Source: Niabella ginsenosidivorans
GTDB taxonomy: Bacteria; Bacteroidota; Bacteroidia; Chitinophagales; Chitinophagaceae
Reading direction: 5' to 3'
DNA length: 64,000 nucleotides
NCBI RefSeq assembly: GCF_001654455.1
Contig: NZ_CP015772.1
Coordinates: 3,782,001-3,846,000, forward strand
Shown here: positions 50,601 to 57,751 of the stretch, piece after piece
Numbering within the stretch: the stretch's first letter is position 1
How the letters are laid out: every line of letters starts with the position of its first letter
Position numbers and translations under genes: made by a program
Notes under the pieces: generated by a model
The model's database searches: none
What the model was told of the DNA's origin: nothing
Seen by the model: the letters and a program-made list of their open reading frames with translations, nothing else

Positions 50601-50997
50601 ATATATAAACCCGGTTTTTATGATCGATTATAGACAAAACAAAACAAGGATTGCTTTTATTGCTAAAAGAATCCATTGAAATTCAATTACTTGAACATAT
50701 TTTGTTTAATCAAATTTTTATTGGCCAAAATAAAAGGATAGCAAAGTTAGGGAAAAATCCGGAAAGAAGGAAATGGATCACAATAATTTTGCCAGATTTA
50801 TCCACAATTGTTTCGCCGTTTTACAAATAGATGATATTCATAAAGTTAAGAAGTTAATTTTATGGGTATTTCTGGTTATTAACCAGCTCATTTCCAGCAA
50901 ACTAATCGAACATTCCTGTTCCGGAGCAAAATTTTTTATTATCAGGGAAACACGGTAAATTGTAGTAAAATCTATGTTTTCACCTAAAGCTGCCATT
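50601..50997. other. Divergent promoter region of rpoB and the helix-hairpin-helix gene
   Basis: This 397-base AT-rich stretch lies between rpoB (minus) and the plus-strand block. TAACTTTG on the minus strand (50742-50749) is a good -7 box, about 140 bases before the rpoB start; a -33 box at the right distance is not clear. A 61-codon ATG frame at 50773-50958 has no recognisable features and is not called as a gene. Confidence 0.5.
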
Positions 50998-51957
50998 ATG
51001 AAAAAAACAGTATGGAAAGAATACCTGCAATTTTCAAGAAAAGAGCAATTGGGCTTATTAGTGCTGGTAATTATAATTTTTGTGTTTGCGGTCTTCCCGT
51101 TTATTCCTTTTCAACAAAATCCGGAAGCAGCAATCGGAAAGCAAGAAGATACAATGCTGCATAAGGCCCTTATAACGTTGGATGAAAAAAAAGAACAGCA
51201 GCAAAACTATGACCAGGAAAACGATGCCGTTTCCTATTATCAGAAGGACCCGCGCACAAATGCCTATGCTGCTTTTAACGGACACTTGTTCCGTTTTGAT
51301 CCCAATACACTGGATAAAAACGGATGGAAAGAACTGGGATTAAGAGACCGTACCATCCAGACCATCATCAATTACCGCAATAAAGGCGGCCGGTTTCGCC
51401 GGCCGGATGACCTGCAGAAGATCTATGGCCTGCACCAGAACGAGTTTGAGCGGCTGAAGCCTTATATAGTCATCAGCGGCCAGGAGCTCAGCAGTCAGCG
51501 GACGGATAATGCATACCCGGAAAGACCAGATGCCCAACGCCATCCGCAACGTAAAGCCATTGCTCCCATTGATATCAACCAGGCAGATACTGCGGCTTTT
51601 ATTAGTTTATCCGGTATCGGCAGCAGGCTGGCAGCAAGGATCGTGAACTTCAGGGATAAATTAGGTGGCTTCTATAGCATTGACCAGATAGGTGAAACCT
51701 ATGGCGTGCCCGATTCAACTTTTCAGAAAATAAAACCCTGGCTGCGGCTGGGCACTTTTCCCGTAAAAAAGCTCAATATTAATACCGCAGCTTATGAGGA
51801 GCTGAATGCGCACCCTTATATCAGCAGTAAGCTGGCTTATCTTATCAGCAAACAACGCAGGCTGGCGCCGGTTACCACTATGGAAGCGCTAAAGGCACTG
51901 GTAGCGCAAACCAATGACGCTTTTGAAAAGCTGGCGCCTTATGTACGTTTTGATTAA
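50998..51957 (+). CDS. Membrane-anchored helix-hairpin-helix (ComEA-like) protein
   Basis: The ATG at 50998 gives 319 residues. It has an N-terminal membrane segment (LGLLVLVIIIFVFAVFPFIP) and several helix-hairpin-helix DNA-binding repeats: around 115 (GGRFRRPDDLQKIYGLHQNE), around 195 (PIDINQADTAAFISLSGIGS) and near the end (KLNINTAAYEELNAHPYISS). ComEA-type proteins bind incoming DNA, and this multi-repeat version is widespread in Bacteroidota. It directly precedes jetA (108 bases), and both DNA-linked functions may be coincidental. It is not JetD: there is no Toprim domain. Confidence 0.85.
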   Translation: MKKTVWKEYLQFSRKEQLGLLVLVIIIFVFAVFPFIPFQQNPEAAIGKQEDTMLHKALITLDEKKEQQQNYDQENDAVSYYQKDPRTNAYAAFNGHLFRFDPNTLDKNGWKELGLRDRTIQTIINYRNKGGRFRRPDDLQKIYGLHQNEFERLKPYIVISGQELSSQRTDNAYPERPDAQRHPQRKAIAPIDINQADTAAFISLSGIGSRLAARIVNFRDKLGGFYSIDQIGETYGVPDSTFQKIKPWLRLGTFPVKKLNINTAAYEELNAHPYISSKLAYLISKQRRLAPVTTMEALKALVAQTNDAFEKLAPYVRFD

Positions 51958-52065
51958 TCAGCCCCCGTTCTTTTTCAATCAAAAAAATCATAGAGCATAC
52001 ACCTGTTTTTTCTTGTCATAATCCCTTATTTTGCGGGGCTTTTGAGGAAAGAGCATGGAACGGTT

Positions 52066-53535
52066 ATGACAAAAGATGATGTAGGCTTTTTAATACAATC
52101 CTCCCCCGCCCTGCAGATGCTGCGGCTGCGGAATGCGGGCTGGGTATTGCCTTTTTTATATGAAGCGTTTAAGGAACCAAGGAAGATGGTAATCAGGGAA
52201 GATCAACTGGTTATGCAGCTTGCTGAAGTCCTGAGTCAGCATGCAGAAGGAACAGAAGATCTGGAAGAAGCCAGAATAGAATTTGGTGAAGATGAGGAAA
52301 GCCGCAGCAGGAAATACCTGCTGAGCTGGGTGCAGAAAAGAATATTGCAGGATTTTCCTGATACGGAAGGCCATACCCATTATCAGTTAAGCGCCTATAC
52401 GGAAAAAGTGTTCCAATGGATGCAGAATCTGCAACTGGGTCAGCACCATGTGGGCACAGAAAGCCGGTTTAAGATATTATTTGCATCCCTGCGGGATATG
52501 GTGGAAAACACGGAAGACAACCGTGAAAAAAAGCTGCAGCAGCTCAAAGACCGGCGGGCCGCTGTTGATAAAGAGATCAAAGCACTGGAAATGGGAGTAG
52601 CCCCACAACGTTACAATAATGCCCAGGTGCAGGAACGGCTCGATCTGTTTATCAGGCTGTGCTATGAGCTGATCGGCGACTTCCGGGAGGTGGAAGATAA
52701 TTTCAAACAGATCCACCGCAGTATTGTTGAGCAGCATACAAAAGCAGAACAGAACAAAGGCGCCATTGTGGGCTTTGCCTTTGAGTCTTACGATGCCTTG
52801 CGCAACAGCAACCAGGGAAAAAGTTTTTATGCCTTCTGGGATTTTTTAATATCGCGCAGCGGGCAGGAAGACTGGCGCAGGTTAACGGATCAACTGATCC
52901 AACTGTTGCAGGACCGGCAACTGGAGGCAGATACGGAGTTCCTGCAGAACATCAAGTCGTTCTTACTGGAACAGGGCAAAGCTGTTTACGAGGCCAATGA
53001 CCGCATGGCGGAAAAGTTAAGCCGCATTATTACTGAAAAGGAAATTACCCGGCACCGCCGGTTGCGGCAACAGATCAGCAGCATTAAAGAACTGATCTTT
53101 GACTATATGGATGATGAAGCCATTCCTGCAGGCATTGTTCTTGATGAGCCCTCTGACATAAAGATGGTTATGGATCGCAAGCTGACCCTGGAGCAGAAGA
53201 CAGCCACAGGCACCTTAAAGCAGCCCGTTGCTGCTGTTGAAAAGATAGCAGATGTGGAGCGCTTTAACCGGCTGCTGAATACCAGCTTTATTGATAAAAA
53301 AGCGCTCTGGCAAAAAGTAGAACAGGTACTGGCAAAAAAGCAAACAGCTACTTTAAAGGAGGTCATAGAATCCACTTCGCTGGAAAACGGGCTGGCGGAG
53401 GTGATCAGTTATTACAGTTTTTTAAAGGAAAAATCCAAAAGGGTGCAGGTAGTTGCAGATACAATGGAGCTGATTCCCATTAATTCACCGGCAACAAAAT
53501 TTGTAGAAGTGCCCTATTTACTATTCAGCAAATAA
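52066..53535 (+). CDS. jetA: Wadjet system subunit JetA (DUF3375, kleisin-like)
   Basis: This 489-residue protein (ATG at 52066; a TTG eight codons upstream is possible) fits DUF3375, the kleisin-type bridge of Wadjet/MksF complexes. It starts LIQSSPALQMLRLRNAGWVL, then FLYEAFKEPRKMVIREDQLV, with ETEGHTHYQLSAYTEKVFQW-type DTEGHTHYQLSAYTEKVFQW before position 125 and FAFESYDALRNSNQGKSFYA near 240. Long helical stretches (REKKLQQLKDRRAAVDKEIK) suit a kleisin. jetB follows 14 bases after its stop. In known systems JetABC forms a loop-extruding SMC-like motor that senses small circular DNA. Confidence 0.9.
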   Translation: MTKDDVGFLIQSSPALQMLRLRNAGWVLPFLYEAFKEPRKMVIREDQLVMQLAEVLSQHAEGTEDLEEARIEFGEDEESRSRKYLLSWVQKRILQDFPDTEGHTHYQLSAYTEKVFQWMQNLQLGQHHVGTESRFKILFASLRDMVENTEDNREKKLQQLKDRRAAVDKEIKALEMGVAPQRYNNAQVQERLDLFIRLCYELIGDFREVEDNFKQIHRSIVEQHTKAEQNKGAIVGFAFESYDALRNSNQGKSFYAFWDFLISRSGQEDWRRLTDQLIQLLQDRQLEADTEFLQNIKSFLLEQGKAVYEANDRMAEKLSRIITEKEITRHRRLRQQISSIKELIFDYMDDEAIPAGIVLDEPSDIKMVMDRKLTLEQKTATGTLKQPVAAVEKIADVERFNRLLNTSFIDKKALWQKVEQVLAKKQTATLKEVIESTSLENGLAEVISYYSFLKEKSKRVQVVADTMELIPINSPATKFVEVPYLLFSK

Positions 53536-53549
53536 ACAGAACAAAAAAA

Positions 53550-54140
53550 ATGGCGGTTCAGATACATGCATTTACACCCTTATTTATAAAATTACTAAAA
53601 GGCCCCATCGAATACCTTGAAAAAAGCAGCTGGGAAAAATTGCTGCAATATAAAACAGAGGTGACCACTTTTCTCCAGCAACTGGGGCTGACCCTGGTAC
53701 TGGACGAGCAGGATGGTTATGCCTATATACGGCATAGTATTACGGAAGAAGACACTACCAGCATCAGTTGGGTGCAGCGCCGTTCCCTTACTTATGATGA
53801 AAGTGTGCTCCTTGTTCTGCTGCGGGATATGATGGCAGAGTTTGAGGTAGGGGCAGCTACCCACCGCGAACTGATCAAAAAGCGCAGGGAGATAAAAGAG
53901 TACGCCGAAGTCTTTTTCCGGGAAAACGCCAGCCGTGTAAAAGTATTAAAAGATATAGACCGGCTGATTGACCGGCTGGAGGAGAACGGGTTCCTGGAAA
54001 AAACCGAGAACCATGATGTGGCAGACGAACAAAAATTCCGCATCCGCAAGATTATTAAAGCAAGAGTAGACAGTGAGATCCTGGAAGATTTTAAACAGCA
54101 ACTAACAGCACATGCAGCTAAACGTATTCAGCACGGATAA
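53550..54140 (+). CDS. jetB: Wadjet system subunit JetB (DUF4194, KITE-like)
   Basis: This 196-residue winged-helix protein belongs to DUF4194 (MksE-like), the KITE subunit that binds the kleisin. It has the expected pattern YIEKSSWEKLLQY-like IEYLEKSSWEKLLQYKTEVT, then DEQDGYAYIRH, SWVQRRSLTYDESVLLVLLR, and a C-terminal winged helix (DRLIDRLEENGFLEKTENHD, then FRIRKIIKARVDSEILEDFK). Its last 29 bases overlap jetC, so the subunits are translationally coupled. Confidence 0.9.
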   Translation: MAVQIHAFTPLFIKLLKGPIEYLEKSSWEKLLQYKTEVTTFLQQLGLTLVLDEQDGYAYIRHSITEEDTTSISWVQRRSLTYDESVLLVLLRDMMAEFEVGAATHRELIKKRREIKEYAEVFFRENASRVKVLKDIDRLIDRLEENGFLEKTENHDVADEQKFRIRKIIKARVDSEILEDFKQQLTAHAAKRIQHG

Positions 54141-57100
54141 TGAAAAAAGCGGTTTCCGGTTACAATACATGGAAGTATTTAACTGGGGCACTTTTGATGA
54201 TAACATACATGCCATTGCCCCCCGCGGGGAAACCAGCCTGCTTACAGGCGCCAACGGAAGCGGCAAAACCACCTTTGTAGATGCTTTGCTCACCTTAATT
54301 GTACCGGAGAAGCGATATCGTTTTTATAATCAGAGCAGCGGCAGCGAAAAGAAAGGCGACCGGACAGAAGAAACCTATGTGCTGGGCGGTTACGGAACCA
54401 TTAACAGTGAAAGCGGCGTTACCAGAACCCTGTACCTGCGGGAAACAAAGGAAGAAGCGTACAGCATCCTGCTGGCAAATTTTGCCAATGAGGCGTTCCA
54501 GGAAGTAACCCTGTTCCAGGTACGTTATTTTGCCAACGGCGACCTGAAACGGCAGTTTGGCATTGCCCATAAAAGCCTGCACATTGAAGAAGATTTCAGG
54601 CCCTTTGACCTGGCAAATGCCTGGAAAAAAAGGATCGATAAACAATACAATAAAACCGGGCGCAAACAGGTAGAGTGGTTTGATGCGGCAAGTAAATATG
54701 CATTCCGGCTCATTGAAGTATTGGGCATGCAAAGCATACAGGCGCTTACTTTATTTAATCAGACAGTTGGTATAAAAGTTTTGGGCAATCTGGATGATTT
54801 TATCCGGACCCACATGCTGGAACCCAGGGATATGGAATCAAAATTCCAGGAACTGAAAAAGCACCTGGGCACTTTGCTGGATGCGCAGCGGAACATACAG
54901 AAGGCAGAAGAGCAGATCCGGCTTTTACAACCCGTACAACAGCATTTTGAAGGCTACCGGCAGTTGCAGACAAAACAGCAGCAATTAAGCCAGGCATTAC
55001 AAACCGCCACAATCTGGAAAACATATCTGCTGAACCGCCTCCTGCAGGAAGCGATAACAGCAGATACTAATGACCTGAAGTTACTGGAAGCAAAAACTGC
55101 CGGCATAAAAGATAAAATAGCGGCACTGTACGAAACAGAAAGAGTTACCCGTAACCAGATTGAGCAAAATGAAGCAGGACAGCGCATTCAACAGTTGGAG
55201 CAGGAACTGCAGGCATTAAAAGAACAGCGCAGAAAGGCAGAAAACAACCAGCTTTCATTTATGGAATGGTGCGCGGCGTTGCATCTTGATGCAAAAACGA
55301 TCCCTAACGAAGACGATTATAAACGCCTGCAAAAAGAGGCCGCCCAGGCTGCCCGGCAGTTGGAGAAAGAGAACCACGTTAATGAAGCAGAGGCCTTTGA
55401 AGCAAAAAACCTGCAGAGAGCAGCTGGAGCAGAACAAAAAACACTGGAAGCCGAATTAAACATATTACTGCATACCAAAAGCAATATACCGGCACACCTG
55501 GTACAGGTACGAAAAAACTTATGCGCCCATTTAAAGATCGAAATCACTGAACTGCCATTTGCCGGAGAACTGATACAGGTAAAATCAGAAGCGCTTGCCT
55601 GGCAACCCGTATTGGAAAAACTCCTGCGCAGTTTTTCTTTAAGATTGCTGATCCCGGAGCAGTATTACAAAAAAGTAACAAGGTATATCAATCATACCCC
55701 TATTGGTACAAAGCTGGTTTATTACCAGGTGCGGGATGCCATTGAAATGCTGGCTGAAGACGACACGGTGTATCACAAGCTGGATTTTCATAAAGCGCAT
55801 CCGCTGGCCGGCTGGGTAGAGCAGCAGATTATTCAGCACTTTTCTTACAGTTGCCTTGAAGACGAAAAGGCCCTGGAACGGTATGACAAGGCCATTACAT
55901 TAAATGGATTGATCAAATCCCGTGACCGCCATGAAAAAGATGATCGCTATGAAACAGCAGACCCGGGCAGGTATGTAATGGGTTGGGATAACAGGCAGAA
56001 AAAAGAAGCCTTGCTGCAACGCAGGAATCAGCTTACTACTGATCTTGCCAATGCTGATGAAATCCTTGCCCGCTGCCAGCACCGTACTGAACGCTTAAAG
56101 CAGCAATCCTATGCGCTAAAACGCATACAGGAACATGAGGGATTTTCTGCAATAAATGTTACCGGCATGCAAAGGCAGATCCATAAAACTGAAACCCAGG
56201 TAGCAGCGCTCAGCAAAGGCAACAACCAGTTAAAAACGCTAAGGGATCAGCTGGCAGAAATCCGGCAGCAACTGGACCTGGCAGAAAAGCAATGGGAACA
56301 GGTTACCAGGGAGACCACCACTTTATCCAATAAAATTGAAGACCGGATAAAACAGCAGCAATCCCTGCAGCCGCTACTGGAGCATCTTACAGCTGAAGAT
56401 GAAAAACAACTGCTACAGTTCGGGGAGGAAGAGGCTCCTCTGTTTGCTGCCGTTACCCTGGATACTATTGACACAGCCTTCCATTCCTTTAAAGAAGGGC
56501 TGGAGCAGGAGCTGTATACGGTACAGCAATCTTTACATAAAGAAGAAACTTTATTGAACCGCAGCATCAGCCATATCAAAAATCCATCCCCCGGGCTGCT
56601 GCAACGCTTTCCTGACTGGTATGGCGATGTTCAGTTCTTTACTGATGAAGCAGAGCACGCAGCAGAGCTGCTGGAGTGGCTGGAAAGGCTGACCACTGAA
56701 AACCTGCCCAAATACCGGAAGGATTTTGAAAACTTCGTCAATGATACCATCACCTATAAGATTGGCGGGCTGAATGAGGAAATGGAAAAATGGGAGCGTG
56801 AGATCAATAACAGCGTCAATAAGCTGAACCAGTCACTGGCAGGCATTAATTTTAACCGGCTTCCGGATACCTATATCCAGTTGGGAAAAAGAAGGGTGCA
56901 GGACGCCAGTGTGCATGCCTTTCGCAGCGCATTGCTGGAAGCATTGCCGCAGGCAGCCAACTGGCAGCAAAGCAGCTTTGAGGAAAAAGCACTACACTTC
57001 CGGGAAAAAGTACAGCCGCTGATTGACAGCCTGGATGAAAGCGAAAGTTACCGTGCAAGGGTTATGGATGTGCGTAACTGGTTTGAGTTCTGGGCCGATG

Positions 57101-57501
57101 AAAAATACCGCAATACCGGCGAATTGAAAAAAACCTACCGGCAGATGGGGCAACTTTCCGGGGGTGAAAAGGCCCAGCTTACCTATACTATTTTATGCAG
57201 CGCCATTGCCTACCAGTTTGGTATTACGCGTGAAGGGAAAAACAGCCGCAGCCTGCGCTTCATTGCTGTTGATGAAAGCTTCAGCAACCAGGACGAAGAT
57301 AAAGCCACTTACCTCATGGAACTTTGCAAACAGCTGCACCTGCAATTGCTGGTAGTTACGCCCAGTGATAAGATCCAGATTGTGCAGGATTATATTGCGC
57401 ACGTGCACCTGGCGCAGCGGGTCAACAACCGCCACAGCATTATGTATAATATGACCATCAAACAATTGCAGCAGCGTTCAGAAGTAAGAAGCGAGAGTTG
57501 A
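54112..57501 (+). CDS. jetC: Wadjet system subunit JetC (SMC/MukB-like ATPase)
   Basis: This 1129-residue SMC-like ATPase has an intact engine: Walker A GANGSGKT at 46-53, after QYMEVFNWGTFDDNIHAIAP; long coiled-coil arms rich in Gln, Glu and Lys at about 270-450 and 650-800; a hinge-like part near 480-600; signature LSGGEK at 1015-1020; and Walker B RFIAVDES with Asp1054 and Glu1055. All catalytic motifs are present, so the protein should be active. It is the last gene of the block: only 250 non-coding bases separate it from the end of rplL, and no jetD (DUF3322/DUF2220 Toprim nuclease) follows. Confidence 0.92.
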   Translation: MQLNVFSTDNEKSGFRLQYMEVFNWGTFDDNIHAIAPRGETSLLTGANGSGKTTFVDALLTLIVPEKRYRFYNQSSGSEKKGDRTEETYVLGGYGTINSESGVTRTLYLRETKEEAYSILLANFANEAFQEVTLFQVRYFANGDLKRQFGIAHKSLHIEEDFRPFDLANAWKKRIDKQYNKTGRKQVEWFDAASKYAFRLIEVLGMQSIQALTLFNQTVGIKVLGNLDDFIRTHMLEPRDMESKFQELKKHLGTLLDAQRNIQKAEEQIRLLQPVQQHFEGYRQLQTKQQQLSQALQTATIWKTYLLNRLLQEAITADTNDLKLLEAKTAGIKDKIAALYETERVTRNQIEQNEAGQRIQQLEQELQALKEQRRKAENNQLSFMEWCAALHLDAKTIPNEDDYKRLQKEAAQAARQLEKENHVNEAEAFEAKNLQRAAGAEQKTLEAELNILLHTKSNIPAHLVQVRKNLCAHLKIEITELPFAGELIQVKSEALAWQPVLEKLLRSFSLRLLIPEQYYKKVTRYINHTPIGTKLVYYQVRDAIEMLAEDDTVYHKLDFHKAHPLAGWVEQQIIQHFSYSCLEDEKALERYDKAITLNGLIKSRDRHEKDDRYETADPGRYVMGWDNRQKKEALLQRRNQLTTDLANADEILARCQHRTERLKQQSYALKRIQEHEGFSAINVTGMQRQIHKTETQVAALSKGNNQLKTLRDQLAEIRQQLDLAEKQWEQVTRETTTLSNKIEDRIKQQQSLQPLLEHLTAEDEKQLLQFGEEEAPLFAAVTLDTIDTAFHSFKEGLEQELYTVQQSLHKEETLLNRSISHIKNPSPGLLQRFPDWYGDVQFFTDEAEHAAELLEWLERLTTENLPKYRKDFENFVNDTITYKIGGLNEEMEKWEREINNSVNKLNQSLAGINFNRLPDTYIQLGKRRVQDASVHAFRSALLEALPQAANWQQSSFEEKALHFREKVQPLIDSLDESESYRARVMDVRNWFEFWADEKYRNTGELKKTYRQMGQLSGGEKAQLTYTILCSAIAYQFGITREGKNSRSLRFIAVDESFSNQDEDKATYLMELCKQLHLQLLVVTPSDKIQIVQDYIAHVHLAQRVNNRHSIMYNMTIKQLQQRSEVRSES

Positions 57502-57506
57502 GTTAT

Positions 57507-57597
57507 CAGATCTCAATAATCAGTTTTCAGCTTTCAGTTATCCGTTATTAGTTTTCAGCGTTTATCTAACCTGAAAGCAGAAACCTGGAAAACTGAA
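57507..57597. repeat. Degenerate 7-bp-period tandem repeat (site 5)
   Basis: About thirteen heptamers in phase: cagatct, caataat, cagtttt, cagcttt, cagttat, ccgttat, tagtttt, cagcgtt, tatctaa, cctgaaa, gcagaaa, cctggaa, aactgaa. It starts five bases after the jetC stop. A separate 9-bp hairpin GTGATTTGT/ACAAATCAC follows at 57608-57631. Confidence 0.7.
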
Positions 57598-57700
57598 GCC
57601 CAAAGCCGTGATTTGTGTCTGTACAAATCACTTAAGGCCACAATAGTTTGGGAAGGTTTTAACAAAAGGATTCCCGTGTATTAGAAGAGCTTTGATCATA

Positions 57701-57728
57701 AAAAAAGCAACCCATGCGGATTGCTTTT
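57701..57728. terminator. Bidirectional terminator between jetC and rplL
   Basis: The stem AAAAGCAA/TTGCTTTT with an inner CC/GG pair has a run of A on the left and T/A on the right. It can end both the jetC transcript and the converging rplJ-rplL transcript. Confidence 0.7.
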
Positions 57729-57751
57729 AAAAAACGTATTAAAAAGTAAAA

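Follow-up and report, generated by a model that had tools for sequence, protein, structure and literature searches.

A JetABC operon without JetD between rpoB and rplL in Niabella ginsenosidivorans and related JetD-less operons in Chitinophagaceae

The genome of Niabella ginsenosidivorans (NZ_CP015772.1, a single 5.63-Mb contig, 99.98% complete, labelled G000 here) encodes JetA, JetB and JetC, the motor complex of a type I Wadjet system, and JetD, the nuclease of such systems, was not found in it. The operon lies in the window, which is the whole analysed stretch of 64,000 nucleotides (bases 3,782,001–3,846,000); positions without another label refer to this stretch. A congener has a complete jetABCD operon at the same site, and JetABC without JetD recurs in the family with intact genes under purifying selection. 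The best overall reading, to which a probability of about 55% is given, is that the operon encodes a nuclease-free, MksBEF-like accessory structural maintenance of chromosomes (SMC) complex derived from Wadjet.

The preliminary description of this stretch had recognized DUF3375, DUF4194 and an SMC-like ATPase in the order of Wadjet type I, and this assignment is confirmed with Pfam and PADLOC, and for JetA and JetC also with PDB. All three genes are on the forward strand. The kleisin gene jetA (52066..53535, 489 residues; an alternative TTG start is at 52042, 24 bases upstream) matches DUF3375 (PF11855) with 287.6 bits and PADLOC JetA1 with 623.5 bits. The KITE gene jetB (53550..54140, 196 residues) matches DUF4194 (PF13835) with 127.7 bits, JetB1 with 163.9 bits and, more weakly, MksE with 43.5 bits. 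The SMC ATPase gene jetC (54112..57501, 1129 residues) matches Pfam SbcC_Walker_B with 78 bits and JetC1 with 1078.4 bits. The matches to JetA1, JetB1 and JetC1 are nearly full length. In the PDB sequence search, the best match of JetC is the JetC of 8dk2 (E 1.3e-56), and the closest PDB relative of JetA is likewise a JetA. The open reading frame (ORF) coordinates reproduce the 14-base gap between jetA and jetB and the 29-base overlap between jetB and jetC that had been reported. The three ATPase motifs described as intact are indeed present: Walker A GANGSGKT (54247..54270, residues 46–53), the ABC signature LSGGEK (57154..57171, residues 1015–1020) and Walker B FIAVDE (57259..57276, residues 1050–1055). 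The 5.4 kb of jetABC are free of stops and frameshifts. The genome has one JetC (E ≤ 1e-20), one JetA and a canonical ScpB, the KITE protein of SMC-ScpAB.

The Toprim nuclease JetD (DUF3322 plus JetD_C), which belongs to Wadjet type I, was found neither beside jetC nor elsewhere in the genome. JetD_C (PF09983) has no match across the genome at E ≤ 0.001 or at E ≤ 1, and the best match to DUF3322 (PF11795) reaches only 11.7 bits, under the 22-bit cut-off. A custom JetD profile was built from the JetD proteins of 12 relatives and searched against N. ginsenosidivorans and 17 congeners. Six congeners treated here have names: Niabella aurantiaca (G277), N. drilacis (G297), N. pedocola (G300), Niabella sp. 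BIN26 (G303), Niabella sp. BIN29 (G302) and N. defluvii (G296). The profile gave nothing in N. ginsenosidivorans at E ≤ 1, matched JetD along its length in four congeners (G237, G119, G304 and G301), and recovered a 27-residue JetD scar in G303 (profile positions 351–377 of 380). With two Pfam families and this profile, the genome-wide search sustains the proposal of a type I JetABC without JetD. Downstream of jetC, exactly 250 non-coding bases (57502..57751) precede rplL on the opposite strand, as described, and a JetD remnant was not detected in them. The JetD match of G301 carries one internal TAG (G301:C94:10091-11230); a diverged JetC fragment is nearby, and this is possibly another decaying Wadjet in the genus.

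The same site in two congeners indicates how the present arrangement originated. G237 has the order rpoB < HHH > jetA jetB jetC jetD > < rplL, where HHH is a helix-hairpin-helix gene and jetD (L089:10316-11464) overlaps jetC by 4 bases. G303 has the same order, and its jetD consists of 27 codons from near the end of the gene (L149:11374-11454), 4 bases past the jetC stop, downstream of a JetABC that is still full-length. Both lie where the 250-base interval is in N. ginsenosidivorans. A well supported branch (SH-aLRT 97.6, bootstrap 97) separates the JetC proteins of these three loci from all others, and N. ginsenosidivorans groups with G303 at 79/76, so a single arrival at the site followed by loss of JetD is the simplest account. 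It is almost certain that jetD of N. ginsenosidivorans was lost by in-place deletion from a former complete jetABCD operon between rpoB-HHH and rplL. The scar of G303 is still recognizable although its JetC is 25% diverged from that of N. ginsenosidivorans, which favours separate losses of jetD in the two species. The case that had been named as contrary to a distinct system, a relative with jetD directly after jetC and a simple loss, is thus realized in G237. The expectation of a JetD-less jetABC conserved at this very locus is not borne out, as the one other JetD-less operon observed at the site is that of G303, which retains the scar.

The position between rplL and rpoB had also been considered unexpected, and the idea of a special locus is rejected. 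The gene upstream of jetA is the described HHH (ComEA-like) gene (50974..51957, forward strand), an old neighbour of rpoB in the genus that is outside the jet system. In 10 further congeners the region upstream of rpoB was examined. The HHH gene is present there in all 10, and in seven of them rplL follows beyond it with no jet gene between; rplL is unseen in the stretch in the other three (G277, G189 and G298). The site is unremarkable, since in the seven congeners that have no jet genes here the divergent HHH gene and further genes already lie between rplL and rpoB. In three other genomes of the Niabella group, the rplL/rpoB interval is filled by large proteins of secreted appearance, as judged by eye (L181:1443-6230, L178:2325-4742 and L179:9709-13074). 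Several of them have a similar C-terminus, and this interval looks like a hot spot of insertion.

JetABC without JetD is frequent in the family. In an even draw of 294 Chitinophagaceae genomes, JetA was found in 61, JetD_C in 37 and both in 34, which leaves 27 with JetA and no JetD_C. Contiguous sequence continues beyond jetC in 21 of the 27; in the others (G128, G162, G190, G210, G236 and G259) the contig ends in or soon after jetC or has no jetC, and the genome-wide JetD_C search is negative. The same applies to N. pedocola, whose contig stops 0.76 kb past jetC and whose genome-wide JetD search is negative. The JetD-less loci are concentrated in one JetC clade, where jetD is absent in cis from 24 of 34 loci versus 5 of 29 outside it (Fisher p 3e-5, uncorrected for kinship; 3 of 27 outside when two contig-cut loci are dropped). 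Thus the view of JetD-less jetABC as a conserved form holds for this clade and not for the rpoB-rplL site. Eighteen of the 24 loci are in genomes without any JetD_C match, and in four cases (G036b, G270b, G209b and G253b) the genome also encodes a complete JetABCD from a different lineage; JetD is about 73 kb away in G119 and on another small contig in G023. Outside the family, JetD_C is missing from 5 of 41 JetA genomes of a phylum sample versus the 27 of 61 (Fisher p 0.0009), where the phylum sample is mostly one genus and its five negatives were counted without individual inspection.

A second, overlapping sample of named relatives (the best 80 of 187) provides 72 clade loci (L187-L258), in which the search for jetD covered the neighbouring sequence to a limit of 8 kb on either side. 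Four are contig-cut, 51 have no nearby jetD, one bears the scar, and jetD is present in 16, two of which have it truncated at the end of a contig, so that 52 of the 68 assessable loci lack it; six of seven more distant named loci carry it. Of the 51 loci without nearby jetD, 49 have full-length frames for JetA, JetB and JetC. The exceptions are L248, which begins at a contig end, and L247 of N. defluvii, which is broken in an assembly 72% complete. Two further arrangements of jet genes were observed in these surveys. Several genomes of one Bacteroidota family, f17 (for example G482:C33, G443:C56, G514:C6, G518:C193 and G466:C4), have additional copies of JetD along with short pieces of its C-terminal part (profile positions around 120–179), some of them near jetD, and a few have short JetA N-terminal pieces; these could be recombining gene cassettes or decay. 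In G080 (L090/L091), jetB and jetC are separated by about 12–13 kb including a 1417-residue ORF and many small ORFs.

The phylogenies point to loss of JetD rather than gain. JetD proteins from the clade loci form one clade (support 99), and the resolved pairs agree with the JetC tree; the simplest reading is therefore an ancestral JetD, with the present pattern produced by loss. In G119, the displaced JetD groups as sister to those of G239 and G028, and the JetC of this genome occupies the corresponding place in the JetC tree. Outside the clade the two trees disagree in places (G080/G255). With JetD ancestral and its loss irreversible, 18 events are required, 15 of them in the clade, and the event in G119 is a displacement. 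When gains are allowed there are 12 changes, 11 of them forced by well supported branches; the corresponding figures are 14 and 11 in the tree of the named sample, from which the truncated or broken loci L245, L247 and L248 are omitted. In the family tree, G162 and G259 are scored as JetD-less and G128 is omitted. The operon at the same site in G237, the scar in G303 and the agreement of the trees together indicate that JetD was ancestral at the N. ginsenosidivorans locus and then lost. Some losses are recent, as the JetC proteins of JetD-less G009 and JetD-bearing G180 share 97% identity. The observed states range from adjacent jetD through distances of 0.8–1.6 kb and about 73 kb to a 27-codon scar and no trace. 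The spacing of jetC and jetD is about 1.6 kb in G239 (L093, with other ORFs between) and about 0.8 kb in G028 (L102), an intermediate stage of separation. The orphan jetD of G119 (L088:8165-9346) lies between a GH43 gene and SusC/SusD-like genes, which makes this a split Wadjet locus.

The ratios of nonsynonymous to synonymous substitution rates (dN/dS), estimated by maximum likelihood, are low in the JetD-less groups, which indicates strong constraint. They are 0.050 for JetC, 0.031 for JetA and 0.027 for JetB in six JetD-less Niabella species; 0.049, 0.053 and 0.041 in 15 loci of the Chitinophaga clade; and 0.049, 0.040 and 0.054 in eight Niastella/Longitalea loci. JetD-bearing groups gave 0.034 and 0.041 for JetC, 0.024 for JetA, 0.039 for JetB and 0.083 for JetD itself. 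Many pairs approach saturation at synonymous sites, so the absolute values are rough, and the JetD-less ancestor of each JetD-less group is reconstructed by parsimony. In a branch model, the N. ginsenosidivorans branch has 0.106 for JetC and 0.072 for JetA, and fixing the ratio at one is worse by 99 and 97 log-likelihood units, respectively. The other branches at the site have 0.108 and 0.039 (G237) and 0.139 and 0.049 (G303) for JetC and JetA, and the three JetC sequences alone give 0.109. In the JetD-less Niabella clade, the stem has 0.109 for JetC and 0.18 for JetA, and the interior 0.048 and 0.031. Many loci within the Chitinophaga group, and likewise within the Niastella/Longitalea group, keep common ordinary neighbours, which suggests vertical inheritance. 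JetABC has very probably been kept functional without JetD in the clade. Intact JetD-less JetABC under purifying selection at the scale of the family makes plausible the JetD-independent role proposed in the preliminary description.

A replacement for JetD was sought among the neighbouring genes. The two genes after jetC were clustered at loci L061-L100, which cover 26 of the 27 JetA-without-JetD genomes and 14 other loci; where a long JetC was missing, a locus contributed no genes. The flanks were clustered for 31 JetD-less loci and also for the named loci. No shared effector beside JetD-less loci was found in any of these sets. In the flanks of the 31 loci, 11 families recur in two or three genera and none in more, at varying positions, and one 216-residue family, present at two loci, lies upstream in each. 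By eye, the products observed resemble SDR (short-chain dehydrogenase/reductase), peptidase, glycosyltransferase, alcohol dehydrogenase, methyltransferase and similar proteins. A gene of about 250 residues after jetC recurs only in the Puia/Flavitalea group and has a secreted or outer-membrane look by eye. In the flanks of the named loci, one gene upstream of jetA is common to Pinibacter with and without jetD and to Chitinophaga, so it is no replacement for JetD.

Changes in JetABC that accompany the loss were also sought. The IFDR motif of JetB contacts JetD according to a review (PMC10586767). Inspection by eye of JetB N-termini did not reveal it in JetD-bearing or JetD-less loci, so it is uninformative on JetD loss here. 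Columns conserved with JetD and variable without it number one in JetA, none in JetB and six in JetC; 200 shuffles of the labels gave means of 0.4, 0.1 and 0.8 and maxima of 4, 3 and 14, respectively. This test omits L245, L247, L248, L239 and contig-cut loci, and for JetA also L228. Without a clear signal in it, nothing marks a new function.

After the loss of jetD, the remaining SMC ATPase, kleisin and KITE would be expected to form a dimer of dimers that loads onto DNA and extrudes loops, and would be unable to cut DNA. The nuclease-free complex has very probably been kept by selection in the clade, most likely as an accessory MksBEF-like condensin alongside SMC-ScpAB, which would act in chromosome compaction or segregation and possibly also in plasmid handling without cutting. 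The nuclease-free retention, the coexistence with SMC-ScpAB and the precedent of MksBEF in Pseudomonas aeruginosa, a condensin (PMC10586767, PMC7485682), make a condensin the best single guess, although the odds for such a role are only about even. Several observations weigh against the reading as a derived accessory SMC complex. JetA is present in only 61 of 294 family genomes and canonical ScpB is present, which means that the complex is dispensable and accessory, and the type I system of Corynebacterium glutamicum had no effect on chromosome organisation (PMC10123090). No clear sequence change in JetABC is tied to JetD loss, the six columns of JetC being over the shuffled mean and within the shuffle range. 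The dN/dS of JetD-less groups is slightly higher than that of JetD-bearing ones in several comparisons, though close, and the raised stem of the JetD-less Niabella clade could be a phase of relaxed constraint. JetC of N. ginsenosidivorans has about twice the ratio of the JetD-less Niabella interior, and forcing equality costs 14 log-likelihood units; the JetD-bearing G237 at the same site has a matching value, and the N. ginsenosidivorans branch mixes time before and after the loss of jetD.

Three other explanations were weighed, and each is unlikely. JetABC may be a relic, still unbroken, of a Wadjet that lost jetD recently. The clear simple loss at this site, the recent loss in G009, the elevated N. 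ginsenosidivorans branch and the broken jet genes of the congeners G296 and G299 agree with such decay, but these two assemblies are 72 and 83% complete and may be rich in frameshifts. A relic is improbable also in view of the uninterrupted 5.4 kb, where each 0.01 neutral substitutions per site would be expected to bring about 2.5 stops, and of the whole groups of JetD-less species with intact JetABC (49 of 51 loci) and dN/dS of 0.03–0.05. It is similarly doubtful that plasmid restriction continues with an unrelated or very distant nuclease in trans or with the JetD of another system. The jetD of G119 still tracks its JetC from about 73 kb away, so that close linkage is dispensable, four JetD-less loci coexist with a complete JetABCD, and clear position-specific relaxation after the loss was not found. 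Against this, N. ginsenosidivorans has no JetD homologue detectable with the two Pfam families and the custom profile, 18 of the 24 JetD-less clade loci are in genomes without JetD_C, and no conserved replacement-like neighbour was found.

In the third alternative, JetABC would control plasmids without a nuclease, sensing small circles by complete loop extrusion and silencing, sequestering or mis-segregating them. The sensing of shape and size by Wadjet is credited to JetABC and not to JetD (PMC10586767), constraint on JetABC is similar with or without JetD, and the patchy spread in the family resembles a defence trait. The shared ordinary neighbours in the Chitinophaga and Niastella/Longitalea groups point instead to vertical inheritance and not to a mobile defence island, and this alternative too has a small chance of being correct. 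The accessory SMC complex derived from Wadjet is retained as the best reading. At the scale of the family, the loss of JetD in many relatives with an intact motor suggests that machinery of defence has acquired a different function. There is perhaps an even chance that in Chitinophagaceae the Wadjet motor lost its nuclease on some twelve or more independent occasions and that selection repeatedly preserved the resulting SMC complex, in an ongoing conversion to a chromosome-organising or non-cutting plasmid-control machine.

A review proposes that MksBEF of P. aeruginosa arose from JetABCD by loss of JetD and that MukBEF had a Wadjet-like ancestor (PMC10586767). The proposed step to MksBEF, loss of the nuclease, seems to recur here many times. 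The genera concerned (Niabella, Chitinophaga, Niastella, Longitalea and Filimonas) include named isolates and have JetD-bearing relatives, and the question of a transition from defence to housekeeping is therefore testable in matched species. In these bacteria, plasmid defence would be overestimated by any annotation that takes jetABC by itself as evidence of Wadjet. In the open-access literature, searched by title and abstract opening (subscription papers being outside this scope), no paper on JetD-less type I JetABC in Bacteroidota was found.

The complex resembles Wadjet type I (JetABCD, MksBEFG) in its three protein families, gene order, overlaps and PADLOC matches, and a congener has the complete JetABCD at the same site. 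It differs in that JetD was found neither in cis nor in trans in N. ginsenosidivorans, and the known plasmid-cutting mechanism is thereby unable to operate. With MukBEF it shares the general architecture, whereas the sequences are very distant, and MukBEF replaced SMC-ScpAB in its hosts (PMC10586767), while N. ginsenosidivorans retains ScpB. The resemblance to MksBEF of P. aeruginosa is in the SMC-kleisin-KITE operon without a nuclease that coexists with SMC. By sequence, the complex is a type I JetABC rather than MukB: the best PADLOC and PDB relatives of its ATPase are JetC, the comparison on the Muk/Mks side was with the MukB NCBIfam model, which gives 8.9 bits under a cut-off of 699, and JetB reaches 43.5 bits with MksE and 127.7 bits with DUF4194. 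Relative to MksBEF, the complex of N. ginsenosidivorans would be an independent derivation.

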